Origin: Thermodesulfobacteriota bacterium
Lineage (GTDB): Bacteria > Desulfobacterota > Desulfobulbia > Desulfobulbales > JBFMBH01
Assembly: GCA_040755095.1 (NCBI GenBank)
Contig: JBFMBH010000015.1
Coordinates: forward strand, 1 to 41,882
Length of the DNA: 41,882 nt
Direction of reading: 5' to 3'
Below the pieces are notes generated by a model. It saw only the letters and a program-made list of their open reading frames with translations. It was not told where the DNA came from and did no database searches. The position numbers were made by a program, and so were the translations under genes. Positions 7,768-41,744 of this stretch are shown in pieces. The first letter of the stretch is position 1; every line of letters starts with the position of its first letter.

Positions 7768-7860
7768 TTCGCCGATTTTTTGTGGCCGGCCCCGGTGCGG
7801 TTCCTGGCACCGCAGGCTCGGGCCAGTCCTGAACGGAATCCATCGCAAGGAGAAGAAGGC

Positions 7861-9793
<1,933 letters not shown>

Positions 9794-20916: not shown

Positions 20917-20974
20917 GCGGGGCCGGAAGAGGCGCCGGCCCGACCCTTGCTGCCCTTCTTCCCACCTTGCCGGA

Positions 20975-21012
20975 GCATCCCCCCGGGGCTTTCCCGGGGG
21001 GATGCTTTTTTT
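20975..21012 (+). terminator. Rho-independent terminator of pstS
   Basis: A 13-bp perfect stem with outer bases GCATCC...GGATGC, a short pyrimidine loop, then seven T (21006-21012). It lies 59 nt after the pstS stop. It may pass some read-through to pstC, but pstC has its own promoter-like site. Confidence 0.9.
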
Positions 21013-21052
21013 GCCCGCACCTGCTTGCCGTCCTTCATCGAAGCCAAATAGA

Positions 21053-21087
21053 ATCGTAATCAAATCTTAACAAGAGACATCTATTGT
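21053..21087 (+). promoter_or_regulatory. Predicted PhoB box and -10 of pstCAB-phoU-phoB
   Basis: ATCGTAA (21053-21059), TCAA, ATCTTAA (21064-21070), then TATTGT at 21082-21087, again 11 nt after the second unit. The four-base linker TCAA is identical to the pstS site. Confidence 0.7.
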
Positions 21088-21157
21088 GGCCTTCGGCCAT
21101 CGGCCGGCTCGGCTTTCGAGCGGCTTTGCACCGCATCAGCCCCGGGACCTTCCACTC

Positions 21158-23410: not shown

Positions 23411-23478
23411 GCGACCGCCGCCGCCGGCCGCTGGCCCGGAGGCGGTGGGCCAGCGGCGTCATACCCGGGAGGGTCGTT

Positions 23479-25092
23479 ATGGACGGGCGACAGCAGAGCC
23501 GGTACTGGCGGGAGGGGGAGCCTTGGGTCTGGCTGAGCGCCACGGCCGTAAGCCTGATCCTGCTCATGGCCACCTGCCTCCTGCTGGTGGTGCTGGCCAA
23601 CGGCCTGGGGGTGTTCTGGCCCCACACCCTCACCCGGCTGGAGATGAGCGGCGGGCCGCCGCTCCTGGGGGAAATCCTCCAGGAGGAGGAGCGGCCGGAC
23701 GGCGGCCGGCGGCTGCAGCTCAAGATCGGCAACCGGGACCTCTATGGCCTGGACTTCCGCTGGGTGCCCGCAGACCAGGTGCAATCGACCGCCACGCCAC
23801 CGGAGGCCCTGGTGCTGGAGCGGCAGGAGTACGGCAACTTCTACGGCTTCATTGCCGGCCTGCGGCTGCCGGCGCTGGGAGCCGCCGCCGCCGGCCAGGA
23901 CGGCTGGCCGGGGCTTGCGGCCGCCCTGGCGCGGGTGGCCAGGGAGCGGCAGGAGCTGACCGCCCGCAGCGAGGGCCTGTCCAAGCTCAACCGCCGGTTG
24001 GCTGCCATCAAGGATCGCCGGCGCTCGCTCCTCTTTGCCGGCCAGAGCCCCGACCAGCCGCAGGTCCTCGAGCTGGAGCGCCAGGAGGCGGAGCTGGCGG
24101 CGCTCTTTGCCAGCCAGGCCGGCGAGCTGTCCCGGCGGACCGCGGCCCTGCGCCAGGACGTGGTGCTCATGCAGGATGCCGCCGGCCGGGAGCGCGAGGT
24201 GCCCCTCCTGGACATCGTCCGGGCCTACCGGCCCAACGCCATGTCGCTGACCGCCAAACTGGGCCTTTACCTGGGCAAGCTCAAGGAGCTCCTGCTGGAC
24301 GATCCCCGGGAGTCCAACACCGAGGGCGGGCTCTTCCCGGCCATCCTGGGCACGGTGATGATGGTCTTTCTCATGAGCCTGTTCTCTTTCCCCTTCGGGG
24401 TCCTGGCCGGGATCTACCTGCGGGAGTATGCCAAGCCCGGGCCGCTCGTGCGGCTGGTGCGGGTGGGGGTGAACAACCTGGCCGGCATCCCCAGCATCGT
24501 CTACGGCATCTTCGGCCTGGGCTTCTTCATCTACGGCCTGGGCGCGGCCATCGACCAGGCCTTCTTCCCGGAGCGGCTGCCCACGCCCACCTTCGGCACC
24601 GGCGGCATCCTCTGGGCCAGCCTGACCCTGGGCCTGCTGACCGTGCCGGTGGTGATCGTGGCCACCGAGGAGGCCCTGGGCGCCATCCCCACCGGCATCC
24701 GCGAGGGCTCCCTGGCCCTGGGCTCCACCCGCTTCCAGACCCTGACCCGCATCCTCGTGCCCATGGCCTCACCCGGGATCATGACCGGCTTCATCCTGGC
24801 CATGGCCCGGGCTGCCGGCGAGGTGGCGCCCCTCATGATCACCGGTGTCGTCAAGCTGGCACCGGCCATGCCCGTGGACGGGGTCTTCCCGTATCTGCAC
24901 CTGGATCGCAAGTTCATGCATCTGGGCTTCCACATCTACGACATCGGCTTCCAGTCGCCCAACGTCGAGGCGGCCAAGCCCATGGTCTTCACCACCACCC
25001 TGCTCCTGGTGGGCATCGTGGTGCTCATGACCAGCGGCGCCATCCTGCTCCGCAACCGCATGCGGCGGCACTACTACGTGAGCGGGGTCTGA
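23479..25092 (+). CDS. pstA: Phosphate ABC transporter permease PstA, large form
   Basis: A 537-residue inner-membrane permease. A first membrane segment ('[25 protein letters not shown]') is followed by a large insert (~residues 50-280) with a coiled-coil stretch ('[28 protein letters not shown]' and '[24 protein letters not shown]'). Then comes the PstA permease core: '[31 protein letters not shown]', '[24 protein letters not shown]' and '[41 protein letters not shown]'. This enlarged form pairs with the enlarged PstC. GGGAGGG at 23467-23473 supports the ATG at 23479, 68 nt after pstC. Confidence 0.95.
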
Positions 25093-25133
25093 GGACCGCC
25101 AAGCGCTCCCCGAGCGAAGGTACTGTTATCGCC

Positions 25134-25922
25134 ATGGCAGAAGGAACAGTCCGTATCGCCACTGTGGGCGATCCGATCATCGTCGTCGACCGCTTCAACC
25201 TCTATTACGGCCAGGCCCAGGCCCTGTTCGACATCGCCTTCGGCATCCCCCGCCACGAGGTGACGGCCTTGATCGGGCCCTCCGGCTGCGGCAAGTCGAC
25301 CCTTCTGCGCTGCTTCAACCGCATGAACGATCTCATTCAGGGGGTGCGGGTGGAGGGCAGTATCCGCATCGAGGGCGAGGATGTCTTCTCCCCGGAGATG
25401 GACGTCATCCGCCTGCGCTGCCGGGCCGGCATGGTCTTCCAGAAGTCGAACCCCTTCCCCAAGTCGGTCTTCGAGAACGTGGTCTACGGCCTCCGGGTGG
25501 CGGGGATCAACGACCGTGCGACCCTGGAGGCGGTGGCCGAGCAGAGCCTGAAGCGGGCGGCCCTGTGGGATGAGGTCAAGGACCGGCTGCGGGAATCGGC
25601 CATGGGGCTGTCCGGCGGCCAGATGCAGCGGCTGTGCATCGCCCGGGCCATCGCCGTGGCGCCGGACGTCATTCTCATGGACGAGCCCTGCTCGGCCCTG
25701 GACCCCCGCTCCACCAGCCAGATCGAGAACCTGATCGCCGAGCTGCGGGGCAGCTACACCATCGTCATCGTCACCCACAACATGCAGCAGGCGGCGCGGG
25801 TCTCCGACTACACCGCCTTCATGTACCTGGGCCGCCTGGTGGAGTACGGCGAGACCAAGCAGGTCTTCACGGTACCGGCCTGCAAGGACACCGAGGACTA
25901 CATCACCGGCCGCTTCGGCTGA
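25134..25922 (+). CDS. pstB: Phosphate ABC transporter ATP-binding protein PstB
   Basis: A 262-residue ABC ATPase that powers phosphate import. Walker A 'GPSGCGKST', Q-loop '[16 protein letters not shown]', signature '[16 protein letters not shown]', Walker B '[13 protein letters not shown]' and the H-loop '[13 protein letters not shown]' are all present. The C-terminal '[26 protein letters not shown]' is typical of PstB. The ATG at 25134 starts the conserved region. Its ribosome site (GAAGG about 8-10 nt upstream) is weak, so translation may depend on coupling to pstA 41 nt upstream. Confidence 0.97.
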
Positions 25923-25963
25923 GCCCGGGGCAGGCTGGCTCCACAGCACAAGGGGGATGGCGC

Positions 25964-26665
25964 GTGGGCAAGACGCTGAGCGCAAAGCTTGAGGGGCTGC
26001 GGCGGCAGCTCCTGGTCGTGGGGGCCCTGGCGGGCGAGAGCCTGGAGCAGGCCCGGCGGGCCTTCCTGGCCGGGGACGTGGCCCTGGCCCAGGAGGTGCG
26101 CGAGAACGACCGGCTGCTCAACCAGGCGGAGATCGCCCTGGAGGAGAGCTGCCTGGCGGTCCTGGCCCTTTTTCAGCCGGTGGCCGGGGATCTCCGGCAG
26201 GTGATCACCATCCTCAAGATCAACAACGACCTGGAGCGGATCGGCGATCTGTGCGTCAAGATCGCCTTGAAGGTGGCGCCGATGGCGGCGGCAGCCCGGC
26301 TCGGCGGCCAGGCCGGGCCGGCCCAGACGCCGCCGGAGCTGGTGCAGATGTTCGTCAAGGTGGCGGCGCTTCTGAGCCAGAGCCTGGACGCCTTCGTGCA
26401 CTTCGACGTGGATCTGGCGCACCGGGTTCGGCTCTGGGATGACGAGGTGGACCGGATGAAGGGGGCGATCCGGGCCCGGATCGAGGAGATCATGCAGCGC
26501 TCGCCGGAGCGCTATGCCCAGCTCAACATCCTCCTCGGCGTCTCCCGGGGCCTGGAGCGGATCGCCGACCATGCCACGAACATCGCCGAGGATGTCATCT
26601 ACATGCAGCAGGGCGCCATCGTCCGCCACCGGCCGGAGCCGGGCGACGCTGCCGCCGGCGCCTGA
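25964..26665 (+). CDS. phoU: Phosphate-signalling regulator PhoU
   Basis: A 233-residue PhoU of two three-helix repeats. Repeat 1 holds 'QPVAGDLRQVITILKINNDLERIGDLCVKIA' and repeat 2 holds 'YAQLNILLGVSRGLERIADHATNIAEDVIYM'. The E/D-x-x-R-I-x-D metal-binding signatures are in both ('DLERIGDLCVKI' and 'GLERIADHATNIAED'). PhoU couples Pst transporter state to the PhoR/PhoB system and represses the regulon when phosphate is ample. Translation starts with GTG at 25964, preceded by AGGGGGA. It lies 41 nt after pstB and 20 nt before phoB, in one operon. Confidence 0.95.
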   Translation: MGKTLSAKLEGLRRQLLVVGALAGESLEQARRAFLAGDVALAQEVRENDRLLNQAEIALEESCLAVLALFQPVAGDLRQVITILKINNDLERIGDLCVKIALKVAPMAAAARLGGQAGPAQTPPELVQMFVKVAALLSQSLDAFVHFDVDLAHRVRLWDDEVDRMKGAIRARIEEIMQRSPERYAQLNILLGVSRGLERIADHATNIAEDVIYMQQGAIVRHRPEPGDAAAGA

Positions 26666-26685
26666 AAGAGAGAGGGAGGAGCGGC

Positions 26686-27370
<685 letters not shown>

Positions 27371-27381
<11 letters not shown>

Positions 27382-29697: not shown

Positions 29698-29860
29698 GCA
29701 GGAAACAACGGCCACCAGAGCGGACTTCCGGCGTCTCACCCAGTTGGGTGCGCCCCGCGTATGGCAAGCCACAAATCCCATGGACCCATGGACCCACGGG
29801 ACCTATAGGACCTGCAGGACCTATAGGACTTATGGGAGGCCACCATGGCCAGTTTCCGGC
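29698..29860 (-). repeat. Interspersed repeat, copy B (inverted relative to copy A)
   Basis: Read on the minus strand it starts with the 'gccggaaactggccatggtggcctc' edge. Then come five 9-mers, CCCATAAGT, CCTATAGGT, CCTGCAGGT, CCTATAGGT, CCCGTGGGT, and two CCATGGGT-like units. The 'atgggatttgtgg' bridge follows, then the header GCGGGGCGCACCC...CCGGAAG and the tail 'tccgctctggtggccgttgtttc'. The flanks match copy A closely while the internal 9-mer number differs. It lies between the PIN-PhoH gene and the metK-like gene, ending 16 nt from the latter's stop. Confidence 0.8.
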
Positions 29861-29875
29861 TGGCCGTCCCTTCGG

Positions 29876-31099
29876 CTAGCCCCCCGCCCGTGCCGCCAGG
29901 CCGGCCTCGGCCCGCAGGGCGGCGAGCCGATCCGTGACCTCCCAGGGCAGGCCCATGTCCATCCGGCCCACCTGGCCGTAGGCGGCCAGCTTCCGGTAGA
30001 AGCCGCCCTTGACCGAGGCCGGCAGGTGCCGCAGCCGGAACTGGCGGAGGATGGCGGCGGGCCGGAAATCGAACTGCCGGCGCACCAGGTGGCCGAGGGC
30101 CTCGTCATCCAGGTGACCGGTGCCAAAGCTTTCCACCTGCACGCTCACCGGCCGGGCCACCCCCACCGCATAGCTCAGATGCACCTCGCACTCGCCGGCC
30201 AGCCCTGCCGCCACCAGATTCCTGGCGGCGTACCGGGCCGCATAGGCGCCGGTGCGGTCGATCCGGTTGGGGTCCTTGCCGGAGAGCGCAGCGCCGCTGT
30301 GGCGGGCGTATTCGCCGTACGTGTCGATGGCGTTCTTGCGACCGGTGAGCCCGGAATGGGCGGTGGGGCCGCAGGGCAGGAAGGAGCCGCCGCTGCGGAC
30401 CATGACCAGGGTGGTGCCGTCGGGCTGGATCTCTTCGCCAAAAAAGGCCGGCTCGATCACCGCCGCCCGCACCTCGTTGCCCAGACGATCGGGATCCACG
30501 GCACCGGCGGTGGCGCGCAGGCAGACCTGGAGGTTGACGCTGTTGACCCGCACCGGCCGGCCCTGCCGGTATTCCACCCCCACCTGGGCGCGACCGTCCG
30601 GGGCCAGGTAGGGCAGGATCCCCTGGAAGCGCACCGCGCTCAGGCGGCGGGCCAGCTTGTGGGCCAGCCAGATGGGCATCGGCAGCAGCCCGGGGCTCTG
30701 CCGGCAGGCGAAGCCGAAGACATTGACCTGGTTTCTCGCCCCCACCGCCTCGACGCCGGCCTCGTCCAGGCTGTGCTCGTCGTAGCGCCGGCTCGGGTCC
30801 AGGGGCACGTCATTGAGGCTGGTCAGGACCGTGCAGGTCTTGCCGTTGAAGCCCTCCTCGTTGTAGCCCACCTGGGTGATGACGTCCCGCACCACCTGGG
30901 GGATGTCGATGAGGGCGGTGGACGAGAAGTGGGCGGCCACGAAGACGATGCTCTGGGCCAGGGCGCACTGCGCGGTGATGCGGGCACAGGGATCCTGCTG
31001 CAGGAAGCGATCGACGATGGCGTCGCTGATGAGGTCACACAGCTTGTCCGGATGGCCCTCGGTCACCGATTCGGAGGTGAAGATGAAGTTCTGGCGCAT
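29876..31099 (-). CDS. metK: Divergent S-adenosylmethionine synthetase (MetK family)
   Basis: A 407-residue MetK-family protein. N-terminal 'FTSESVTEGHPDKLCDLISDAIVD' keeps the His/Asp of the ATP and Mg site. C-terminal 'GLTGRKNAIDTYG', 'SGKDPNRIDRTGAYAARY', 'SYAVGVARPVSVQVESFGTG' and 'GQVGRMDMGLPWE' follow the family. Several near-invariant spots differ: 'GAGDQG' is 'GARNQV', 'PDxKSQV' is 'PDGRAQV', the Asp before 'GLTGRK' is replaced (TAHSG), and 'HGGGAFSGKD' is 'HSGAALSGKD'. It is either a divergent MAT subfamily or a paralog with altered chemistry. It lies 24 nt after the P-ATPase gene on the same strand, so it is probably the last gene of that operon. Confidence 0.85.
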   Translation of the reverse strand: MRQNFIFTSESVTEGHPDKLCDLISDAIVDRFLQQDPCARITAQCALAQSIVFVAAHFSSTALIDIPQVVRDVITQVGYNEEGFNGKTCTVLTSLNDVPLDPSRRYDEHSLDEAGVEAVGARNQVNVFGFACRQSPGLLPMPIWLAHKLARRLSAVRFQGILPYLAPDGRAQVGVEYRQGRPVRVNSVNLQVCLRATAGAVDPDRLGNEVRAAVIEPAFFGEEIQPDGTTLVMVRSGGSFLPCGPTAHSGLTGRKNAIDTYGEYARHSGAALSGKDPNRIDRTGAYAARYAARNLVAAGLAGECEVHLSYAVGVARPVSVQVESFGTGHLDDEALGHLVRRQFDFRPAAILRQFRLRHLPASVKGGFYRKLAAYGQVGRMDMGLPWEVTDRLAALRAEAGLAARAGG

Positions 31100-31123
31100 G
31101 GGCCTTCCTCACGGGTTGTGGCC

Positions 31124-34100
31124 TCAGCAGGCCGGCACCGGCGGCAAGGGGGTGGCCGGCGGCCGCCGGGCCGTGGTGGCCTTCTTCACGGTTTCGTTGA
31201 CGACAAGCGGCAGGCCAGCGGCGGCCCCCACCACCAGAAGATCGCTCACCCCCAGGGCGGCCACGCCCAGGAAGGAGCGCAGGCCGGGCACCAGAATGGC
31301 CGCCCCTTGCAGGGCCAGGGATCCCAAAAGGGCCCGGGACAGGTGCCGGTTGGGCGCCAGGTGGCCATAGTCCAGCACCGTGTGGCGGTCGGAGCGGCAG
31401 GACAGGGCGTGCAGGAGCTGGCCGATGGTGAGGGACAGGAAGGCCAGGCCGCCGGCCCGGGGGCCCCGGCCGTAACGGGCCAGCCCGTAACCGTAGGCGG
31501 CCAGGGAGGAGGCCCCCAGCACCGCTGCCTCCCGGCCCAGCCGCGCCAGGTGCGCCCGGTGGACGATGGGCTCCCGGGGGTCCCGGGGCGGCTGCCAAAG
31601 AACGTCTGCCTCGGCCGGCTCCAGGGACAGGGCCAGGCCCGGGAAGATGTCCGTGACCAGGTTGATCCACAAGAGCTGCATCTCGGTCAAGGGCTGGCCC
31701 AGGCCGGCGGCATTGGCGGCGAAGACGACGATGATCTCGCTCAAGTTGGTGGCGAGGAGGAAATGCAGGGCCTTGCGCACGTTGCCGTGGATGGTGCGGC
31801 CCTGGGCCACTGCCTCCAGCATGGTGTCCAGCTGGTCATCCTCCAGGATGACATCCGCCACCTCCCGGGCCACATCGGTGCCGGTGCCACCCATGGCGAT
31901 GCCGATGTCGGCGGCCTTCAGGGCCGGGCCATCGTTGATGCCGTCGCCGGTCATGGCCACCACCCGGCCGCTGGCCTGCAAGGCCCGGACGATCTCCAGC
32001 TTGTGGGCCGGACTCACCCGGGAGAAGACCGCGGCCTGGGCCGCCAGGGCCTGGAGGGCCTCGGGCGGCAGATGGCTGAAGGTGGTGGAGTCCAGGATGC
32101 CAAGGGGCTCCGAGCCGGAGATGTCCAGGGCCTTGCCCACCGCGTAGGCGGTGGGCGACTGGTCGCCGGTGATCATCACCGTCTTGACGCCGGCCCGGTG
32201 GAAGCGGGCGATGAGGGCCCGCACCCCGGGCCGCACCGGATCGGCCATCCCCACCAGGCCCAGCCAGGTGAGCTGGCAGCCGGCCAGGGCCTCCGCGTCG
32301 GTGACGGAGTCGTCCTCGTCCAGGAGGGCGTAGGCCAGACCCAGGACCCGCAAGGCCTTGCCGGCCATGACCTCGTTCTCCTGGCGCAGGAATTCCCGGG
32401 TCTCGTCGTCCAGGGGCCGGACCTCGCCGCCTTGCATATGGCAGGAGGCCAGTGCCAGGACCTCCAGGGGGCTGCCCTTGACGGCTGCCAGGCGCGGGCC
32501 ACCGCCGTTGGTGTGCAGGGTCACCATGAGGTTGCGGCCCTCGGCCCGGTGCAGGATGCTCGCGCGGGGCAGGGCCAGGAGCATGGCCGCCACGTCGAGA
32601 CCGGCATCCATGGCCATGTGCACCAGCGCTTTTTCGGTGGGCGAGCCGCTCACCACCACCTCGCCCTCGCCGGGGATGACCTCGCTTTCGGTGCACAGAC
32701 AGGCCACCGCGGCCAGGGCCCGGGCCTCGTTGGCCAGTCCCTCGCCATCGCCCAGGGACAGGGGGGCACGCGGCCCGTCCAGGGCATGGCTGCGGCCACC
32801 CACCAGCACCTCCACCACGGTCATGCGGTTGGCGGTGATGGTGCCGGTCTTGTCCAGGCACAGCACCTGGGTGGCGCCCAGGGCCTCGATGGCGTCGAGG
32901 TGGCGGACCAGCACCCCCCGGCGGCGCATGGCGCGCACCCCCAGGGCCAGGGTGGTGGTGGCCACCGTGGGCAGCCCTTCAGGGACCGCGGCCACGGCCA
33001 GGGAGATGGCGGCCTTCAGCATGGGGATGAAGCCCTGGCCTCGCAGGAGTCCAAGGACAAAGACCAGGCCGCACAGCACGCCCGAGACCACCGACATCTG
33101 GGTGCCCAGCCGGTCCAGCTGCTGCTCCATGGGGGTGGCCGGTGCGGTCTCCCGGCCCACCATGGTCTGGATGGCACCCACCTCGGTCTGGCTGCCGGTG
33201 GCGGTCACCACCGCCAGGCCCTGGCCCCCGGTGACCAGAGTGCCGAGATAGACCATGTTGCAGCGGTCCGGCAGGGGCATCGCCGCCTCCACCGTCACCT
33301 CGGCCTGCTTGGCCGCGGGCACGCTCTCACCGGTCAAGGCCGACTCGTCGATGGACAGCCGGGCGCTCTCCACCAGCCGGGCGTCGGCGGCGACGTACTG
33401 GCCGGGGCGCAGGACCAGCACATCCCCTGGCACCAGCTCCTCGACGCCGGTGTCCCGGACCTGCCCATCCCGCAAGGTCAGGGCCCGGGGCCGCACCAGA
33501 TCCTTCAGGGCATGGATGGTGCGCTCGGTCTGGCTTTCCGTGACGTAGCCGATGGCGGCGTTGATGCCCACCACCCCCATGATCACCACCGCGTCCACCA
33601 GGCCGCCGGTGGCAGCGGACAGGACCGCGGCCCCGGCCAGGAGCGCCACCGGCACCGAGGCCAGCTGCTCGGCGAGGACGCGCCAGGGCGACCGGGGCAC
33701 TGCCTCGGGCAGCAGATTGGGGCCGTAGCGGGCCAGCCGGCGGTCCGCCTCCTTCTGGCTCAGGCCGGCCGGAGAGGTCGTAAGCGCCTGCACCACCTCC
33801 TGGCGGTCCAGGGCATGCCAGGAGAGGGCGGGGGTCGCGCTGGCCGGTCGGGGCACGCTGGCCCCTGGCGGCCGGGGTCGGGGAGCGGCCACCTGCGGCA
33901 CCGGGGACGGCGGAGCCGGGGTGCCCTTTCCAGCGGCCGCCCCCAGCACGGCCTCGACGCAGGATTTCACCGACCGGCTGGACTGAAGGGAGTTGTAGAA
34001 AACGAGGAGGTGGCCGGTGACCGTGCTGGCCGACACCGGACCGATGCCGGGAAAGGCGAGCAGCCGGCTTTCCAGATGGACCTTCAGGGCCTTGCTGCGC

Positions 34101-34207
34101 CGCAGCCCCGGCACCCGGAAACGGGCTCGGCCCCTGACCGCATCGTGGATGGTGGCGACCACGGACGATGCGGCCAGGGGCCGAGCAGGCGAAGCGCCGG
34201 GCGGCAT
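31124..34207 (-). CDS. P2-type cation-transporting ATPase with Cys-less HMA2-like N-terminus
   Basis: A 1027-residue ion pump. Residues ~15-95 form an HMA2-like ferredoxin fold ('GRARFRVPGLRRSKALKVHLESRLLAFPGI...TVTGHLLVFYN') without the CxxC metal motif, followed by a Pro-rich linker. The pump core has actuator 'ALTGESVP', phosphorylation 'CLDKTGTIT', hinge 'TGDGINDGPALK' and 'MVTLH' nucleotide-domain strands. The membrane motif is 'AVPEGLP' (P2A, not CPx). M5/M6 keep 'NLSEIIVVF' and 'WINLVTDIFPGLAL', the Asn/Glu and Asn/Asp positions that coordinate Ca2+ in SERCA-type pumps. Ca2+ or Mn2+ is therefore more likely than Cu or Zn. It starts 6 nt after the 22-mer repeat gene. Confidence 0.93.
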   Translation of the reverse strand: MPPGASPARPLAASSVVATIHDAVRGRARFRVPGLRRSKALKVHLESRLLAFPGIGPVSASTVTGHLLVFYNSLQSSRSVKSCVEAVLGAAAGKGTPAPPSPVPQVAAPRPRPPGASVPRPASATPALSWHALDRQEVVQALTTSPAGLSQKEADRRLARYGPNLLPEAVPRSPWRVLAEQLASVPVALLAGAAVLSAATGGLVDAVVIMGVVGINAAIGYVTESQTERTIHALKDLVRPRALTLRDGQVRDTGVEELVPGDVLVLRPGQYVAADARLVESARLSIDESALTGESVPAAKQAEVTVEAAMPLPDRCNMVYLGTLVTGGQGLAVVTATGSQTEVGAIQTMVGRETAPATPMEQQLDRLGTQMSVVSGVLCGLVFVLGLLRGQGFIPMLKAAISLAVAAVPEGLPTVATTTLALGVRAMRRRGVLVRHLDAIEALGATQVLCLDKTGTITANRMTVVEVLVGGRSHALDGPRAPLSLGDGEGLANEARALAAVACLCTESEVIPGEGEVVVSGSPTEKALVHMAMDAGLDVAAMLLALPRASILHRAEGRNLMVTLHTNGGGPRLAAVKGSPLEVLALASCHMQGGEVRPLDDETREFLRQENEVMAGKALRVLGLAYALLDEDDSVTDAEALAGCQLTWLGLVGMADPVRPGVRALIARFHRAGVKTVMITGDQSPTAYAVGKALDISGSEPLGILDSTTFSHLPPEALQALAAQAAVFSRVSPAHKLEIVRALQASGRVVAMTGDGINDGPALKAADIGIAMGGTGTDVAREVADVILEDDQLDTMLEAVAQGRTIHGNVRKALHFLLATNLSEIIVVFAANAAGLGQPLTEMQLLWINLVTDIFPGLALSLEPAEADVLWQPPRDPREPIVHRAHLARLGREAAVLGASSLAAYGYGLARYGRGPRAGGLAFLSLTIGQLLHALSCRSDRHTVLDYGHLAPNRHLSRALLGSLALQGAAILVPGLRSFLGVAALGVSDLLVVGAAAGLPLVVNETVKKATTARRPPATPLPPVPAC

Positions 34208-34213
34208 GGGCGG

Positions 34214-34960
34214 CTACTTCTTGACCAAGGCCTTGCGGGCACCGCCCTTGTCTTCCGCGGCCTCGCCTTCAGAAGCCTCGGGAGCGACCGGAGGCACAGC
34301 CGCGGCCGCCGCGGCCTTCGTCGTCTTCGGACTCGGGGCGGAGGGCAGGGCAGCGACGAGCACCTCCTTTGCCCCGCCAATGGCCCCCACCAGCACGTCG
34401 GTGACCGTGCGGCTGGCGGTCTTGCCAATGGCACCGGCGGCCTCGATGGCTCCCACCACCGCGGTGCGGCCGACCTCCTCGATGTTGCCACCCACCTCCC
34501 GGGTGGCCTCCAGGACCCCGTCCACCGTCCGGCGGGCCACCAGGCCCACATCGGCCCCGACCGAGGCCGCGGCCTGCACGGCCCCCCGGGCGGTCTGGCC
34601 GGCCGCGGTCACCAGGTCGCCGCCCACATCGCTCACCCCCATGATCACGCCCTTGGCCACACTCTTGGTGCCCAGGATGAGGCCGGCCCCCACCTCTTCG
34701 GTGGCCTGGATGGCGCCCTTGATGACATCGCCGGCCACGTCGACGGTGCCCTTGGCCACCTCGCCGGTGCTCTTGGCCACGTCACCCGTGGCCCGCAGGG
34801 TGCTGCAGACCACGTTGCGGGCCAGGGCGACGATCTCGGCCTCGATCTCGTTCAAGCCCTTCAGGCTGTGGATGATGCCGTTCTTGATCTGGGTGCCAGC
34901 CTGCTGCAGGCTGGGGCCACTCGCCGTCGCTGTCTGGGTGTCGTCTTCCACGATGACCAT
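34214..34960 (-). CDS. 22-residue-repeat amphipathic-helix protein (apolipoprotein/synuclein-like)
   Basis: A 248-residue Ala/Gly/Val-rich protein. From about residue 82 it consists of consecutive 22-residue repeats, each starting G-A/V-I/V/L and carrying an acidic 'E/D-V-G' near position 8-10: 'GAIQATEEVG', 'GVIMGVSDVG', 'GAVQAAASVG', 'GVLEATREVG', 'GAIEAAGAIG', 'GAIGGAKEV'. Shorter 11-mer-like units precede them ('GDVAKSTGEVAKGTVDVAG'). Such 11/22-mer helices lie flat on membranes or particles. No catalytic motif or signal peptide is seen. The C-terminal tail is Ala/Pro/Glu/Lys-rich and disordered. It lies directly before the P-ATPase gene in the operon. A membrane-surface or scaffold role is inference; the family is unknown to me. 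Confidence 0.8.
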   Translation of the reverse strand: MVIVEDDTQTATASGPSLQQAGTQIKNGIIHSLKGLNEIEAEIVALARNVVCSTLRATGDVAKSTGEVAKGTVDVAGDVIKGAIQATEEVGAGLILGTKSVAKGVIMGVSDVGGDLVTAAGQTARGAVQAAASVGADVGLVARRTVDGVLEATREVGGNIEEVGRTAVVGAIEAAGAIGKTASRTVTDVLVGAIGGAKEVLVAALPSAPSPKTTKAAAAAAVPPVAPEASEGEAAEDKGGARKALVKK

Positions 34961-35016
34961 CGGCTTGCCTCCTCGTCCCTTCGGATGTTCCTCTTCGCCC
35001 CCTGGACAAGGGACAC

Positions 35017-35568
35017 TCAGTCCCGGGAGACTCCCGTCGCAGGACCCTGCGCGCCTGCCGCCTCCGGCCTCCTCCCGCCCACCTGGACCCCGGACAGGAG
35101 GGTGAGGCCGTACCAGAACAGGGTGTACCAGGCCGGAGCCCGCAGATTGCCCCGCAGGATCTGCAGCACGCCGGCCCCCAGAAGGCCGATGCCCGCCAAG
35201 GTCGGCAGGTCAAAGCGGCCGCCGGTGGCCCGGCGCACCTGCTGATCGGCGGCCCGGACCTCCTGCCGCAAGGCCACGGCCACCGAGACCGGGCCCTGGG
35301 CCCACGGGCGCTTGGCCTCCGGCCCGGCGGCAAGATCGAACAGCCCGGCCTGCCGGGCCTGGCGAGCCAAGGCCTGCAGACTGCCGGTGTGGTGCACCAC
35401 CAGGCTGCCTCGGGGGGCATGGCTTACGACGGCCAGGCAGCCGGGCAGGGCCAGAAGCTGCGGCTCCAGGCCGGCGAAGAAGACCGGATCTCCCTGCCGG
35501 GAGGGGATCCGCAGGCGAGCACGGCCGGGGAGCTGGTGGGCAAGCCGCGCCTCAGGCAGGCTGCCCAC
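35017..35568 (-). CDS. HMA2-like domain protein with C-terminal membrane segments
   Basis: About 183 residues. The N-terminal half is an HMA2-type fold: 'ARLAHQLPGRARLRIPSRQGDPVFFAGLEPQLLALPGCLAVVSHAPRGSLVVHH'. There is no CxxC. A linker follows, then a short hydrophobic pair 'DLPTLAGIGLLGAGVLQILRG' and 'WYTLFWYGLTLLSG' likely to insert in the membrane. The GTG at 35568 overlaps the end of the DUF5132 gene by 17 nt and has GAGG upstream. The longer frame to 35853 only shadows DUF5132. The domain resembles the N-terminus of the neighbouring P-ATPase, suggesting a partner of the pump. Confidence 0.7.
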   Translation of the reverse strand: MGSLPEARLAHQLPGRARLRIPSRQGDPVFFAGLEPQLLALPGCLAVVSHAPRGSLVVHHTGSLQALARQARQAGLFDLAAGPEAKRPWAQGPVSVAVALRQEVRAADQQVRRATGGRFDLPTLAGIGLLGAGVLQILRGNLRAPAWYTLFWYGLTLLSGVQVGGRRPEAAGAQGPATGVSRD

Positions 35569-35911
35569 TGTCGGCCTCGTCCACGGCCAGTCGCCCCGCC
35601 TCCGGCTCCGGCTGCTCCTGGGGACAGGCAGCTCCGGTCCCGGCCATGCCAGCAGCCAGGGCGTGCTCCTCCTCCACCTCGGCCTTGGCCTCCGCCCACA
35701 GGTCCTCGACGATCTCGCCGGTCTCGGCAGCCAGCTCTTTGCCCTTTTCGAACAGCACCAGGCCGCTCTTGATGGCCGCCTTGGCCACCGGCTTGGCAGC
35801 CTGGGCCAGCACCGGCAGAAGGCGTGGCGCCAGCACCGCCGCCCCCAGGCCAACCGCCAGGCCCACCAGCGTCTTGCCCTTGAGAAGATCTCCCACCATG
35901 CCCATGCGCAC
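35552..35911 (-). CDS. DUF5132-type protein
   Basis: A 119-residue protein. 'GDLLKGKTLVGLAVGLGAAVLAPRLLPVLAQAAKPVAKAAIKSGLVLFEKGKELAAETGEIVEDLWAEAKAEVE' is characteristic of DUF5132: one membrane-type helix followed by an amphipathic, acidic helix. The acidic, disordered tail ends at 'ADSGQPA'. DUF5132 genes are often found beside HMA2-domain proteins and P-type ATPases, as here. They may act like small pump-associated membrane scaffolds, which is inference from context only. A predicted promoter lies ~100 nt upstream. Confidence 0.8.
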   Translation of the reverse strand: MRMGMVGDLLKGKTLVGLAVGLGAAVLAPRLLPVLAQAAKPVAKAAIKSGLVLFEKGKELAAETGEIVEDLWAEAKAEVEEEHALAAGMAGTGAACPQEQPEPEAGRLAVDEADSGQPA

Positions 35912-36173: not shown

Positions 36174-36545
36174 TCAGATCAGGGCGGAGAGGAAGGACAG
36201 GCCGGTGCCGGCCAGGGCTCGATCCATGGCCAGGCTCATCACCACCTTGCCCACCAGCTCTCCCATCCTGCCGGAGGTGTGGGCCAGATGCTGGTCGTGG
36301 CTCATGGCCTGCTTCGGATCGAAGAGGCCTTCCCGCTCCAGGAGGCGGAGGATGGCCACCGGGGTGAGGCGCTCCCGATCGTATTGCACGGTGACACTGC
36401 CGGTGACCGGGTTGGCCTGCACCGAGCGCACGCCAGCCAGCTGGCTGATGAGCCGTTCGGTCTCCTGGGCCGCGGCCTCGTTGCGGCGCACCCTTGGACT
36501 CCTGATGCGCAGCCGTCCCGGAACGTGATGCTTGTAGTAGCCCAT
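36174..36545 (-). CDS. HMA2-like domain protein
   Basis: A 123-residue protein. 'MGYYKHHVPGRLRIRSPRVRRNEAAAQETERLISQLAGVRSVQANPVTGSVTVQYD' is an HMA2-type ferredoxin fold without Cys pairs. A short helical linker ('PVAILRLLEREGLFD') follows, then a C-terminal hydrophobic helix ('GELVGKVVMSLAMDRALAGTGLSFLSALI') similar to the membrane-associated ends of pump-linked HMA2 proteins. ATG at 36545 with GAGGAC ~8 nt upstream, only 4 nt after the zinc-ribbon gene stop. It is separated from DUF5132 by 262 nt that carry a promoter-like site. Confidence 0.75.
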   Translation of the reverse strand: MGYYKHHVPGRLRIRSPRVRRNEAAAQETERLISQLAGVRSVQANPVTGSVTVQYDRERLTPVAILRLLEREGLFDPKQAMSHDQHLAHTSGRMGELVGKVVMSLAMDRALAGTGLSFLSALI

Positions 36546-36549
36546 GGTG

Positions 36550-36903
36550 TCAGTCCTCGCAAAGCTCGATCCTGTGATAGGTCCTGCAGATCGGATAGGC
36601 GGCGCAGCGGAGCACCAGGCCCCGTGCGGCCCGCTGACAGATGTGCATCCGGCTGCCACAGACAGGGCAGGCCGGGCGGTCGTCCATTTCCGGCCGGGTG
36701 TGGCCGAGGCTGAACTGGCGGCCGCAGACCTGGCAGCGGCAGCGTCTGGTCCCGTGGCGGTCATGGCCGTAGCGGTAGACCGCGCCGCCGCCGCAGCGGG
36801 GGCAGGCCGGCAGCTCGCTTGCGGCACCGCCCGCAGCTCCCCCCTCCTCTGTCGGCTCGCCGATCCTGCTGTCAGCGTCCATGGATTCCGGCATCTGTTT
36901 CAT
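36550..36903 (-). CDS. Double zinc-ribbon protein (transposase-type ribbon)
   Basis: A 117-residue protein with an acidic, disordered N-terminus. Ribbon 1 is 'CPRCGGGAVYRYGHDRHGTRRCRCQVCGRQF', the type found at the N-terminus of IS1 InsA and other transposases. Ribbon 2 is 'CPVCGSRMHICQRAARGLVLRCAAYPICRTYHRIELC'. No transposase catalytic domain follows, so this is a free-standing nucleic-acid or protein-binding ribbon, possibly a regulator of the HMA2/pump genes. It is 4 nt from the HMA2 gene. Confidence 0.7.
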   Translation of the reverse strand: MKQMPESMDADSRIGEPTEEGGAAGGAASELPACPRCGGGAVYRYGHDRHGTRRCRCQVCGRQFSLGHTRPEMDDRPACPVCGSRMHICQRAARGLVLRCAAYPICRTYHRIELCED

Positions 36904-37213: not shown

Positions 37214-38269
37214 CTACACCCGCTGGCGCACCACCTCGAAGGCGATACTGGCCCGGGTGACCGAGCTGCGGCCGGTATAGAGGAAGATCGCTGCCCACAG
37301 GCCCTGGAGGGCCAGGATGGCGCCGGGCTGCCAGAGGCTGGCCAGGCCGCGGCGGATGACCGGTGGCGGCATCTGCAGGTCGGCGCCCAGGAGAACGGTG
37401 GTCAGGACCCCGTAGAGCAGACCGGCGGCGGCCATGATCTGGTAGGCGGACAGGCGGCCGCCGCCCCGGAAATCGGCCCGCAGCTGCTCGGCCAGGCAGC
37501 GCCAGCCGAGGCTCAGCCCCAGGGCCACCAGATAGGCGCTGGCATGGCGGCCGGCCAGGAAAAGCCCGGTGCCCGCCAGGGCGGCCAGGGTGTTGACCGC
37601 AGCGGACAGGGACTGCACCGGCACCAGCGGCACCTGGCAGCATCCCCCTTCGTAGGCCGCCTTCTTGGTCTCGCCGGCAAACACAGTGCCATAGCCCCGC
37701 AGGAGCCCGGCCAGCCAAGGCGGCAGGTCGGCCATCCTTTTGCCGTAACAGCAGCCGAAGGACAAACAGGCCAGGCGGCCGACCCCCTCGCCCAGGGCCA
37801 GGGCGATGGCCAGGGCCGCGAGCACCGGCATGACCGGCACCGCCTGGCCCCCCATGTGCCTGGTCACGGCATTGACGCTGCCGATGACCCAGGGGGCGGC
37901 GACGATGCCGCAGAACGAGGCGCCGCCCACCGTGAAGGTGTGGGCCTTTTTTTCCACCAGCCGGGCGACCAGCCGGGCCGCCGGCACGGCCAGGCCGAGG
38001 ATGAGGGCCATGACCGTGGCCAGCCAGAGGAGCGGGATGTCCAGGGAGCGCAGCAGCACCAGGGCCAGGGCCACAGCCAGGACCAGGGCGGTGGCGGTGA
38101 AGAAGCCGTAGAAGGTGTAGTTGACCCCTTGCCACGAGCCGCCGGCCTCCTTGCGGCGCGGCGCCGCTGCAATGATCTGCCAGTTCTCGGCCGGCAGGGC
38201 ATACGCCCCCCAGGCCTGCAGGGTGAAGAGGCTTGCGCCCAACAGGGCCAGAAACAGGGCATTCGTCAT
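37214..38269 (-). CDS. Lgt-like polytopic membrane protein
   Basis: A 351-residue membrane protein with about eight or more helices. It resembles prolipoprotein diacylglyceryl transferase: 'ALGEGVGRLACLSFGCCYGKRM' corresponds to the Lgt Arg/Gly/Cys-Tyr-Gly signature, and 'AEQLRADFRGGGRLSAYQIMA' to the second Arg-containing loop. The order of helices also fits. True Lgt transfers diacylglyceryl from phosphatidylglycerol to lipoproteins; whether this divergent copy does so is unclear. Its ATG overlaps the stop of psd (ATGA), so translation is coupled. Together with psd this suggests a phospholipid-dependent modification pathway. Confidence 0.7.
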   Translation of the reverse strand: MTNALFLALLGASLFTLQAWGAYALPAENWQIIAAAPRRKEAGGSWQGVNYTFYGFFTATALVLAVALALVLLRSLDIPLLWLATVMALILGLAVPAARLVARLVEKKAHTFTVGGASFCGIVAAPWVIGSVNAVTRHMGGQAVPVMPVLAALAIALALGEGVGRLACLSFGCCYGKRMADLPPWLAGLLRGYGTVFAGETKKAAYEGGCCQVPLVPVQSLSAAVNTLAALAGTGLFLAGRHASAYLVALGLSLGWRCLAEQLRADFRGGGRLSAYQIMAAAGLLYGVLTTVLLGADLQMPPPVIRRGLASLWQPGAILALQGLWAAIFLYTGRSSVTRASIAFEVVRQRV

Positions 38270-39309
38270 GACCGGGTCTCCCGGGGTGTGCAGGGCGGCC
38301 GGCGCGCCCGGCCGATGTCGGAGCGCACCTTGACGTCGGTCTCCACCAGGCTGCGGGAAAAGCCGGCACTGAAGCGGCTGGCCACGTCCTGGCGATGGAG
38401 GTTGCGGGTGAGATCCTCGGCAAAGGCCACCCGGCCGGGCTGGAAGAGCAGCACATCCGTCGAGCTCCCCGGCCGGTAGCGGCTCTTGGGCTGGCCTTTC
38501 CGCAGGAACATGCCGGGCCGAGCCGGCCGGGGCAGGTCATACCGGTGGGGGCTGTAGCACTGGACGACCTCGCCGATCATGAGGGCCACCACCTCGATCA
38601 TGGCCACCAGGCCCACTCCGGTGCCGCCCTCCACATCGGTGTCGATGATGGTCACCGTGCGCTTGTTTTTGGAATACGGCGTGGCCATGGCCACCACCGC
38701 GCATGGATTGCACGAATGGTAGAGGCCGTCCACGGTGTAGAAATCCCGCACCACCCCGGCCACCGGGGTGTGGCTGTAGTGGTACTTGTCCGGGGTCAGC
38801 CGGAAGATGGCCCAGTCGCCGCCGGCAAAGGCACTCACCCAGACCGGCCGCGACCGGTCGACCAGTTCCGCCAGGTCGAAGAACTTCTCCTTCAGAAACA
38901 GCAGAGAGGTCTCGGCCAGGGAGCCCAGCAGCACCCGGCTGTCGGCCGGGGAGACCACCGCTCCGGGGTCGGTGCTCATGGGCCGGCAGTCCCAGAAGCG
39001 GATGCGGCGCTCGAAGACCTTTTGCGGCGTGTCCAGCTCGTCCGGATGGCCGAGGCACTCCGCAAGATCCACCCCCACCTGGCTCAGGAAGCGGCGGCCC
39101 ACCGGCAAGAGCTCGGCCAGCCGGCGGTCGTAGTGGAGGTAGGCCAGAAGACGCGACATGCGGGCCGAAGTGAGGGCGCGGAACAGGGCCGGCGTGCGCT
39201 CCCTGGTCTCATCGTAGAAAAAGCGTATCAGGCCGTCCCCGAACAGGTGCTCGGTCCGGACCAGGCTGGTCTCCCGGTCGATGTACTGGTGGACCATGCT
39301 GCTGCTCAT
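38266..39309 (-). CDS. psd: Phosphatidylserine decarboxylase family protein
   Basis: A 347-residue PSD-family protein, which converts phosphatidylserine to phosphatidylethanolamine with a self-made pyruvoyl group. Visible: 'AVVSPADSRVLLG', 'IFRLTPDKYHYSHTPVAG' with the conserved His pair, and the self-cleavage site in 'YRPGSSTDVLLF' (GSS in place of the usual LGST; cleavage would be before the Ser). The long N-terminus (~120 residues) and the 'NKRTVTIIDTDVEGGTGVG' segment match the larger PSD subfamily. It lies 32 nt after the 800-residue gene and overlaps the Lgt-like gene by 4 nt. Confidence 0.88.
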   Translation of the reverse strand: MSSSMVHQYIDRETSLVRTEHLFGDGLIRFFYDETRERTPALFRALTSARMSRLLAYLHYDRRLAELLPVGRRFLSQVGVDLAECLGHPDELDTPQKVFERRIRFWDCRPMSTDPGAVVSPADSRVLLGSLAETSLLFLKEKFFDLAELVDRSRPVWVSAFAGGDWAIFRLTPDKYHYSHTPVAGVVRDFYTVDGLYHSCNPCAVVAMATPYSKNKRTVTIIDTDVEGGTGVGLVAMIEVVALMIGEVVQCYSPHRYDLPRPARPGMFLRKGQPKSRYRPGSSTDVLLFQPGRVAFAEDLTRNLHRQDVASRFSAGFSRSLVETDVKVRSDIGRARRPPCTPRETRS

Positions 39310-39341
39310 GCCGGTTTCATCCTCTGGTCACGGGCGGGGGC

Positions 39342-41744
39342 CTACGCCGCCCGTCCAAGGGCTGCCGCCGGCGGCCCGTCCCGATGCATCCGCCGCTGGT
39401 CGTGGTCCAGGGAGACCAGCAGCAGGCCGATGAGCCGGCGCAGGACCGGGGCATCGGCCCGGCCGTTCGGCACCACGTGGCGGCAGGCGGCCAAAAAGGC
39501 GCTGCCGCTGTCACCGGCCAGCGCCTCGGCCGCGGTCCGGACGCTCGCATCGCCGGCCGCCAGGTCCTGCGCCAGGATTTCCAGGGCCTCGCCGGTCTGG
39601 CGGCTGCGGAGCTGGTGGCGGTAGAAGCCTTCCGCCGCCAGATTGACCTCCTCGGCGGGCAGATCCAGGGGCGAGCGGCCGCCGGCCAGCTCCAGGATCG
39701 CGGCGGTCAGGCGGCCGGCGGCCCCCAGTCCGGCAGGGTCGCGGCTGGCGGCGGCCAGGGCATCCAGGTCCGGGCCGCTGCCGGAGGCTGCCACCAGTTG
39801 GCCGGCCTCTCGGCGCACCAGGCGGAGGAGGGCCTGGCGGTAGTCGTCCAGGCGTACCCGCAGATAGCCGGGGTAGCGCCGGCTGGGCCGGGTCTCTCCG
39901 GTCAGGGCCAGGATCTGGCGCAGCAGGAGGTTGCCGGTGTCCCGGCGTACGAAGAAGGTGGGCAGATCGATGGCCGCGGCGAACACCACCTGCCGCCGCT
40001 CGCTTTCGGTGAACGGATCGTCGGGGAGATCGGCATGGGTGATGCGTCCCGACAGGGCCAGCTGGCAGGCGAAGGCCGTAAGCAGGGCCTGGAGGTCGGC
40101 GGCCACGGCCAGGTCGGCAAAGGAGGGAAACAGGCTGTAATGCCGGCCTTCGAAGCCAAAGAAGCCGGCCTGACCCACCTCCCGGGCCCGGAGCAGAAGA
40201 TAGGTGGCCATCCGGGGATCGAAGACCCCGAGTCGGGCCAGGTCTTCCTTCAGCCGCTCGTGGTTGCCGGGGGTGCCGTCCAGGGCCGGGCAGCCGTCGG
40301 TGGACAGGAGGGCCACCAGGTAGTCCAGCAGGCGGTGGTCCGGGACAAAGTCGCCCTTGAGGCCGAAGAGCCGGCTGAGCAGGCGGTCCAGCCAGGGCGG
40401 CCCCAGGGGGGTGCACGGCTGGCCCAGGATCTGCAAATGCGCCTTCTTGCGCCAGCGGCGCCAGAGCATGCGCAGGTGGGTGTAGTGGAGCTCGTGGGGC
40501 AGGAAGCCCAGCACCCGCTCGGGATGGAAGTCGGTGAAGGCCAGCCGGTACGGGGCAGCGCTCAGCAGCCCGACGAAGAGGGGCAGGAAGTGCTCGACAA
40601 TCTTGATCACCAGGTCGGCCAGGACCTTCTCGGCCAGGGCGCCAAAGCCCGAGCCCCGCTCCTGGCGCAGCGCCGTGAGCCGGCGGCTGCCCAGGGAGAT
40701 ATGGACACCGTTGTTGGCCAGGCTGACGTTGGAGGTGTTGGGCAGGACCACCAGGTTGTTGGTGATGATGCCGGCCTCCCTGAGCTTGATCACCGCGTTG
40801 AGCTGGCTGCGGGACAGGGTCTGGTGGCACAGCCCCATGTAGCGGTGCTTCTCCTCACCCCGGTTCCAGCCGGACAGGCAGGGGCTCATGAACAGCTCCC
40901 GGTAGAAGCTGTCCGAGATGAGGTCGTTGAGCCTTTTCTGCCGCACCGGCGGGTGGGGCGAGAAATAGACCACCGCCTCCTGGCCATGATCGGCCAGCCG
41001 GAACTGGCGGTTGGCGTACGCCACCAGGAGCTGGCTCAGGAGGTAGCGCTTGGCGGTCTCCCGGGCGAGCTCCTGGCCCACCCGGGACTGGCCCTGCACC
41101 ACGTGGCAGGAGAGGGTCTCCGGCGAGGTGTTGTCGGACAGGAAGTGATCCAGCAGCCGGAGGCCGGTCGCCCGCACCGCCGGCAGCCGGCCCTCCTCAT
41201 GGTCGACGGCATCGGCCAGGGCCAGCTTGAGGAGGTAGCTGAGCGGGATGCGCAGCCAGGGCTCGCCGGCCTCTTCGAACAGGAAGCGGTGGGCGTCGTC
41301 GCGCAAGGGGCTGCCCGGCTGTCCCTTGTCCGCCCTGAGGTCCTCCCGGAGCACCTGGCTGGCCAGGGGCGAGAGGGCATGGCGGGGCAGGCGTACCCAG
41401 GAGTTGTCCCAGGCCACCGTGCCTTCGGCGGCCAGGAAGGCATCCAGCTCGGCCAGCATCCGGGGCGAGGTCTCGCCGGTTTCCATCCGCCGGCGGGCCT
41501 GGCGGTAGAAGCTCGACTGCAGGATCGCCTGGGGCAGATCCACATCCCGCGCCCGGCCACACACCACGGCCTGCAGCTCGTTCTCGGCTCCGGCCGTGAG
41601 GTCCTCGCCCAGGAACGGCAGGCGGTCCAGCGGCGACCCGGTGTCCGGGCCTGTCAGGCCCAGGGCGGCCCGCACCCCGGCCAGGGCGGTCTCGACGCCG
41701 GACTTGCCGGTCCGGGAGGCAACAAGCGGTGTCCTGTCGGCCAT
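39342..41744 (-). CDS. 800-residue protein of unknown function in a psd operon
   Basis: A large soluble-looking protein with no family I can name. Distinctive stretches: 'DLPQAILQSSFYRQARRRMETGETSPRMLAELDAFLAAEGTVAWDNSWVRLP', 'VVLPNTSNVSLANNGVHISLGSRRL', 'YRLAFTDFHPERVLGFLPHELHYTHLRMLWRRWRKKA' and 'DYLVALLSTDGCPALDGTPGNHERLKEDLARLG'. It is mostly helical, with no signal peptide, P-loop or obvious membrane helix. The strongest clue is context: it is the first gene of a tight operon with psd and the Lgt-like gene. ATG at 41744 with AAGGAG about 9 nt upstream. A lipid-related enzyme is a reasonable guess, not a call. Confidence 0.75.
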   Translation of the reverse strand: MADRTPLVASRTGKSGVETALAGVRAALGLTGPDTGSPLDRLPFLGEDLTAGAENELQAVVCGRARDVDLPQAILQSSFYRQARRRMETGETSPRMLAELDAFLAAEGTVAWDNSWVRLPRHALSPLASQVLREDLRADKGQPGSPLRDDAHRFLFEEAGEPWLRIPLSYLLKLALADAVDHEEGRLPAVRATGLRLLDHFLSDNTSPETLSCHVVQGQSRVGQELARETAKRYLLSQLLVAYANRQFRLADHGQEAVVYFSPHPPVRQKRLNDLISDSFYRELFMSPCLSGWNRGEEKHRYMGLCHQTLSRSQLNAVIKLREAGIITNNLVVLPNTSNVSLANNGVHISLGSRRLTALRQERGSGFGALAEKVLADLVIKIVEHFLPLFVGLLSAAPYRLAFTDFHPERVLGFLPHELHYTHLRMLWRRWRKKAHLQILGQPCTPLGPPWLDRLLSRLFGLKGDFVPDHRLLDYLVALLSTDGCPALDGTPGNHERLKEDLARLGVFDPRMATYLLLRAREVGQAGFFGFEGRHYSLFPSFADLAVAADLQALLTAFACQLALSGRITHADLPDDPFTESERRQVVFAAAIDLPTFFVRRDTGNLLLRQILALTGETRPSRRYPGYLRVRLDDYRQALLRLVRREAGQLVAASGSGPDLDALAAASRDPAGLGAAGRLTAAILELAGGRSPLDLPAEEVNLAAEGFYRHQLRSRQTGEALEILAQDLAAGDASVRTAAEALAGDSGSAFLAACRHVVPNGRADAPVLRRLIGLLLVSLDHDQRRMHRDGPPAAALGRAA

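Follow-up and report, generated by a model that had tools for sequence, protein, structure and literature searches.

Rep22, a 22-residue-repeat protein of a conserved bacterial P-type ATPase cassette, as a candidate scaffold of the pump

In carbonate-forming cyanobacteria, calcyanin and the CoBaHMA proteins bring together basic HMA-like domains without CxxC, glycine-rich helical repeats and calcium; in calcyanin, glycine-zipper repeats are fused to the HMA-like domain and the setting is that of intracellular carbonate. The pump of the fez clusters belongs to the P1B-6 class. Ferrosomes are membrane-enclosed organelles, and their fez genes encode a P-type ATPase along with small membrane proteins, as outlined in PMC10979944. 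In mycobacteria, PacL1 is a repeat protein encoded together with a P-type ATPase, and PMC9374683 presents it as a proposed factor assembling the pump into membrane platforms.

In our study, a window of 41,882 nucleotides (the whole stretch of DNA that was analysed) was found to carry on one strand a gene cassette in the order DUF5132, HMA_2 protein, Rep22, pump and MetK-like enzyme. By description only, this cassette is similar to calcyanin/CoBaHMA in its basic CxxC-less HMA-like domains, Gly-rich helical repeats and probable link to calcium. It is also similar to the fez clusters in combining a P-type ATPase with small membrane proteins, whereas its pump matches Cation_ATPase N/C, SPCA1/LMCA1 and the Ca-pump NCBIfam models and is not of the P1B-6 type; FezC/DUF4405 was absent from the Pfam matches of the scanned window proteins. 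Rep22 shares with PacL1/DUF1490 and DUF6110 the position of a repeat-protein gene adjoining a P-type ATPase, a clustering role having been proposed for PacL1. On the other hand, PacL1 works with a P1B pump and combines Glu/Ala repeats with a transmembrane helix and a motif that binds metal, whereas Rep22 has no family match (no DUF1490 or DUF6110 in Pfam), lacks a Cys/His motif and accompanies a P2A-like pump. By eye, the DUF5132 protein of the cassette looks more PacL-like than Rep22.

With perilipin 4, alpha-synuclein and the apolipoproteins, as described in PMC5889406, Rep22 shares the 11-residue period, the unbroken register, a V/G/T/A-rich face without aromatics and a low hydrophobic moment. 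The mean 18-mer moment of Rep22 is 0.28-0.37 on our own scale; PMC5889406 gives Heliquest moments of 0.30 (alpha-synuclein) and 0.257 (Plin4), and the two scales have not been cross-checked. In contrast to these proteins, Rep22 is bacterial, and its unit is 22 residues long, so that only every second 11-mer begins with an N-cap. The searches returned no Pfam family at E<=1 (and with it no PAT or synuclein domain), no NCBIfam family at E<=0.1 and no PHROGs family.

Conservation of the cassette

Rep22 is a 248-aa protein encoded at 34214-34960 (-) by an ORF with an ATG start and a GAGGAGG ribosome site directly upstream, and its conservation indicates that the ORF is a real gene. When one genome per species was scanned with exact peptide patterns, a search that detects close relatives only, 27 loci came up at 57-66% identity, labelled as Deltaproteobacteria, Nitrospirota (Nitrospirae/Thermodesulfovibrionales), Candidatus Methylomirabilis, Manganitrophus and Thermodesulfobacteria. 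A profile built from 28 Rep22 sequences found matches in 22 of the 297 genomes sampled from the window's phylum; the matches were strong (E below 1e-71) in 18 of the 297, the window's own genome included, and 17 loci were added in this way. Within the same loci the pump is mostly 46-58% identical to the window copy as against 57-66% for Rep22, which is thus conserved equally to the pump or more. The core of Rep22 has a constant length in the 27 loci, and only the window copy departs from it, by 7 inserted residues.

The linkage of the genes was surveyed in 45 loci (the 27, the 17 and the window), among which L030 and L058 have identical Rep22 and L008 and L012 are 98% alike. The pump was found downstream of Rep22 in 43 of the 45 and in all 43 with at least 1.5 kb of downstream DNA, and the MetK-like gene downstream in 41 of the 45 (39/39 with 4.5 kb). 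Upstream of Rep22, DUF5132 is present in 42 of the 45 loci (32/33 with 2.5 kb) and an HMA_2 protein in 40 (39/42 with 1.5 kb). The exception is L026, a locus with a short flank, where the 0.7 kb downstream of Rep22 holds no pump and DUF5132 is missing on the upstream side. Moreover, DUF5132 lies within 3 kb of Rep22 in 18/18 strong Rep22 genomes and occurs in only 3 of the other 279 in the 297-genome sample. The distances among Rep22 sequences follow those of the pump with a Spearman coefficient of 0.59 (11 genomes), compared with 0.19 and 0.26 when each of the two is set against canonical MetK. The Rep22-pump gene linkage is hence conserved across several phyla, as required by the earlier note, and the neighbours which it had named (DUF5132, HMA_2 proteins and a P-type ATPase) are all present by Pfam. 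In genomes G112 and G235, two cassettes (L084 and L086) hold DUF5132, HMA2, pump and MetK without Rep22; Rep22 is therefore a regular but not an obligatory cassette member, and the pump is not strictly dependent on it. Genome G128 has DUF5132 with a more distant pump and neither Rep22 nor MetK.

In the window, the HMA_2 protein next to Rep22 (HMA2b, 35017-35550 (-), start uncertain) was assigned by PF19991 (E 1.1e-7, match 35104-35544) and bears two hydrophobic segments at its C-end. It is followed upstream by the DUF5132 protein (35552-35911 (-), PF17195 E 9.6e-9), with a hydrophobic N-half and an acidic/Ala-rich C-half; the literature search found no paper on DUF5132. A second HMA_2 protein (HMA2a, 36174-36554 (-), start uncertain, PF19991 E 4.5e-13, match 36309-36533) is accompanied by a zinc-ribbon protein (36550-36903 (-), weak zinc-ribbon Pfam matches), which is found in 16/45 loci. 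This HMA_2 and zinc-ribbon pair (36174-36903 (-) in the window) recurs as a separate unit near the cassette, often convergent with it, in L008, L010, L012, L017, L018, L021, L022 and other loci. Antisense to the entire cassette runs a 1833-aa ORF (29744-35245 (+)), which is probably a product of the high G+C codon bias.

Related repeat proteins were also seen in other arrangements. One cassette (L062) holds two Rep22-like genes in tandem (G342:C34, 13219-13794 and 14260-14886). Stand-alone 22-residue-repeat proteins without a pump occur in genomes G066, G138 and G328; such proteins, apart from the pump cassette and differing in copy number, lie at L063 7118-7627, L064 6976-7824 and L065 about 7790-8330. 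A match of one stand-alone relative to a tape-measure family (PHROGs, E 8.2e-7) was read as a repeat artefact.

Repeats and predicted structure of Rep22

Rep22 contains 22-residue (2 x 11) amphipathic helical repeats, as recognized by repeat and spectrum analysis and by AlphaFold. Six units follow one another in an unbroken series over residues 82-213, each opened by glycine (G82, G104, G126, G148, G170 and G192), which bears out the claim of consecutive repeats of exactly 22 residues with Gly at position 1. The acidic-Val-Gly motif that had been placed near positions 8-10 stands in strict form in three of the six repeats (EVG, DVG and EVG) and is relaxed in the other three (SVG, AIG and EVL). 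Against shuffles, the autocorrelation of the 188-aa core reaches z values of 7.9, 6.3 and 4.8 at lags of 22, 44 and 11, respectively. The hydrophobic period is 98.0-98.5 degrees, with the spectral peak of the core at 98.5; an 11/3 helix, as in synuclein and perilipin, has 98.18, and the power of this peak at 85-115 degrees was reached by 0/1000 shuffles. When 426 other mechanical ORFs from the loci (130 aa or longer) were compared, no lag-22 score as high as that of Rep22 was seen, and three ORFs equalled its helical power, two of them being antisense frames of repeat genes and the third peaking at 103 degrees; this comparison is a rough control only, because the list contains antisense and overlapping frames.

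The hydrophobic face is formed by V/I/A/T at positions 8, 1, 5, 9 and 2 of 11 (65-196 degrees, an arc of about 130 degrees) and the polar side by K/R and then E/D across 229-327 degrees, so that the expected amphipathic face is found on the repeats. The charged positions are strongly conserved. Glycine occupies one position per 22 in 95% of the repeats and another in 81%, an N-cap residue (D/N/S/T) stands at the repeat boundary in 176/225 and Gly follows 11 residues further on in 207/225. The two 11-mers within each 22-mer are therefore non-equivalent, and the N-caps and Gly spacing support a 22-residue helix-turn unit. Rep22 is rich in V/A/G/E/T, with 0.2% aromatics (28 proteins), 22% charged residues, 14% Gly and 32% V/I/T, and the likeness to synuclein put forward in the earlier note holds in this Plin4/synuclein-like composition. 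The mean helix-propensity cost is 0.484, whereas 348 ORFs have a median of 0.451 and the all-helical PhoU lies at 0.39-0.41. Such a composition is that of a poor intrinsic helix former, and weak intrinsic helix formation is expected if a surface or a partner induces the helix.

The AlphaFold models of the window Rep22 and of a Thermodesulfatator homologue, which have most alignment rows in common and are not fully independent, agree on helices of ~19 residues, turns of ~3 residues and disordered tails, and reach a pLDDT of about 90 across residues 100-190. The predicted shape is a compact helical-repeat array and not an extended helix; amphipathic repeats are often folded into bundles by AlphaFold. 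The proposal of a textbook surface-lying helix is thus partly supported, through its amphipathic 11/3 face, whereas the unequal 11-mers and the breaking of the modelled chain into 19-residue helices speak against an uninterrupted one. A Foldseek search of the PDB with the Rep22 model gave no match at E<=0.001 (E-values 0.05 or worse). In a second structural comparison only designed soluble helical repeats, which were nearest with Z 10-11 and rmsd 2.2-3.0 over 117-127 residues, and other helical folds came up; according to the comparison tool, helical-repeat models can commonly give Z values up to about 13. The PDB sequence profile search returned only alpha-synuclein at a non-significant E of 0.96.

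Pump, MetK-like enzyme and neighbouring genes

The pump (31124-34207 (-)) is a P2A-like (Ca-type) P-type ATPase with an N-terminal HMA_2-like domain. It has the Cation_ATPase N and C domains (Pfam) and its closest solved structures are SPCA1 and the Listeria calcium pump LMCA1. Its best NCBIfam models are Ca pumps, with scores below the curated calcium-pump (PMR1-/SERCA-type) equivalog cut-offs (579.5 bits vs 798.3 and 527 vs 703.4). The ion-site motifs M4 PEGL, M5 N..E and M6 N..[ST]D are present in 36/36 sequences, and the M8 site, which we take to be the position of SERCA E908 (SERCA numbering), holds Gln and never Glu in the same 36. These ion sites would fit Ca2+ or Mn2+. The N-terminal domain has CxxC in 0/36 and retains a basic GR.R pattern, and for these reasons is probably not a metal-binding HMA.

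The MetK-like enzyme (29876-31099 (-)) is a second, divergent SAM synthetase by its TIGR01034 score (351 bits vs cut-off 309.4), with a rebuilt methionine pocket. At E<=1e-130 it was found in 20/297 genomes, namely 17 of the 18 strong Rep22 genomes, the Rep22-less G112 and G235, and G177, where it lies at a contig edge; the one strong Rep22 genome without a match, G167, has its cassette broken by contig ends. Contig-edge copies apart, the enzyme occurs only with this pump cassette in the 297 sampled genomes. In E. coli MetK, methionine is held by E55, Q98, D238 and K269, D238 also contacts the ribose, and archaeal MetK enzymes bind methionine through other residues, as described in PMC3853416 and PMC1282579. 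In 39 cassette sequences (the window and 38 relatives, L006-L062), compared with 17 canonical MetK, the catalytic residues H14, D16, K17, R244, K245, K265 and D271 are kept in 39/39 and most ATP/phosphate residues are retained. At the methionine site, E55 is replaced by Arg in 33/39, Q98 is kept in 4/39, and D238 and K269 are changed to His and Arg, respectively, in all 39, so that the pocket has become more cationic. A full repurposing of the enzyme is weakened by the score above the metK cut-off and by the other methionine residues of the archaeal enzymes, and SAM synthesis is possible.

Beyond metK, and convergent with the cassette, lies a pstS-pstC-pstA-pstB-phoU-phoB phosphate regulon (19930-27381 (+); TIGR02136, TIGR02138, TIGR00974, TIGR00972, TIGR02135 and TIGR02154, with the PstC and PhoB matches scoring under the curated NCBIfam cut-offs). 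At least four pst/phoU genes are found near the cassette in 11/25 loci with 6 kb on either side of Rep22 and in 11/45 overall (the window, L008, L010, L014, L016, L017, L021, L023, L031, L046 and L057); independent events are fewer than 11, because 8 of these 11 loci come from related Nitrospirota-type genomes. The pst-phoU genes are divergent upstream in eight loci and in L046, codirectional upstream and directed towards the cassette in L057, and downstream in the window. The chance of a pst operon within a ~16-kb locus of a 3-4 Mb genome was estimated as well under 2%. The Pho-box consensus gave 2 sites in the window vs 1.8 expected by chance, and because of this chance-level count no control of the cassette by PhoB is claimed. 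The literature search found no relevant paper on the MetK-pump-pst combination. As a separate observation, the PstC ORF (21086-23410 (+)) is extended at its N-terminus by several hundred residues, its PstC domain covering only residues 537-766.

Upstream of the cassette, Pfam and NCBIfam identify a lipid triad (37214-41744 (-)) of an LGT-like protein, a phosphatidylserine decarboxylase-like protein and an 800-aa protein without a family assignment. The triad stands beside the cassette in three loci (the window, L057 1-4200 and L062 1-3500), and the 800-aa gene alone at the start of L048.

Possible roles of Rep22 and wider meaning

The constant position of Rep22 beside the pump and the altered MetK, wherever the flanks are readable, suggests a role in organising the pump at the membrane. 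About an even chance is given to Rep22 being a peripheral scaffold of the apolipoprotein/perilipin type for a pump membrane platform, the pump being probably one for Ca2+; membrane binding, clustering of the pump by Rep22 and Ca2+ as substrate are reasoned guesses. The repeats may form amphipathic helices stacked as hairpins when free, which would spread on the membrane or pack against it once bound, and Rep22 may thereby gather the P2A-type pump into a platform that also includes the HMA_2 proteins and the membrane protein with DUF5132. An exchangeable array of this apolipoprotein-like kind, folded up in the free state and opened out on lipid, would account for both the AlphaFold models and the perilipin-like face. 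The scaffold reading is favoured by the gene linkage, by the closer agreement of Rep22 distances with those of the pump, and by PacL1 as a functional precedent.

The hydrophobic face may, however, simply be buried, since the modelled array is compact and, among PDB structures, comes closest to designed soluble repeats. The cassettes that lack Rep22, the locus L026 and the stand-alone repeat proteins also speak against the scaffold reading. The main rival reading takes Rep22 as a soluble, stably folded alpha-solenoid, built from helix-turn units of 22 residues, which stays off lipid and ties together cytosolic components, for instance the MetK-like enzyme, the head of the pump and the HMA_2 domains. 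The agreement of models from two different homologues, the alignment of designed helical repeats, the N-caps at the repeat boundaries and the conserved charged positions all speak for it, whereas the high Gly and V/I/T content implies weak helices, the Z values are common for helical repeats, the Foldseek E-values are poor and the models are partly dependent; it is considered possible, though somewhat doubtful. Proteins of the LEA family are also marked by 11-mer amphipathic periodicity, and the stand-alone repeat proteins found elsewhere would suit an LEA-type desiccation or stress protein, or a generic chaperone, that is incidental in the operon. This is very unlikely, as Rep22 has no LEA family match in Pfam, the linkage is too constant and the core length is invariant apart from the window insertion. 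Right-handed hendecad coiled coils share the 11/3 period, and the hydrophobic positions of Rep22 hold an a/d/e/h-like set, but a long coiled coil forming filaments or spacers is likewise very unlikely given the wider hydrophobic arc, the two Gly-rich positions per 22 and the AlphaFold turns every 22 residues.

A bolder and rather unlikely reading is that the cassette forms a membrane platform or a storage compartment for calcium phosphate of a kind new to bacteria. In it, a Ca2+ pump would load, a perilipin-like Rep22 would coat, basic HMA-like proteins would recognise anionic lipids, the phosphate regulon would supply, and a repurposed MetK, with its triphosphate site kept and a cationic pocket, would act on a phosphorylated or other anionic substrate.

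This study has given a fixed genetic context to Rep22, a previously undescribed and deeply conserved repeat protein. The conserved cassette with its altered MetK and phosphate neighbourhood is a more surprising part of the outcome than the membrane role of Rep22, and a cassette-bound MetK relative with a rebuilt pocket points to unknown chemistry tied to ion and phosphate handling. The context of Rep22 leads to the testable claim that non-mycobacterial bacteria scaffold P-type pumps with amphipathic repeat proteins.
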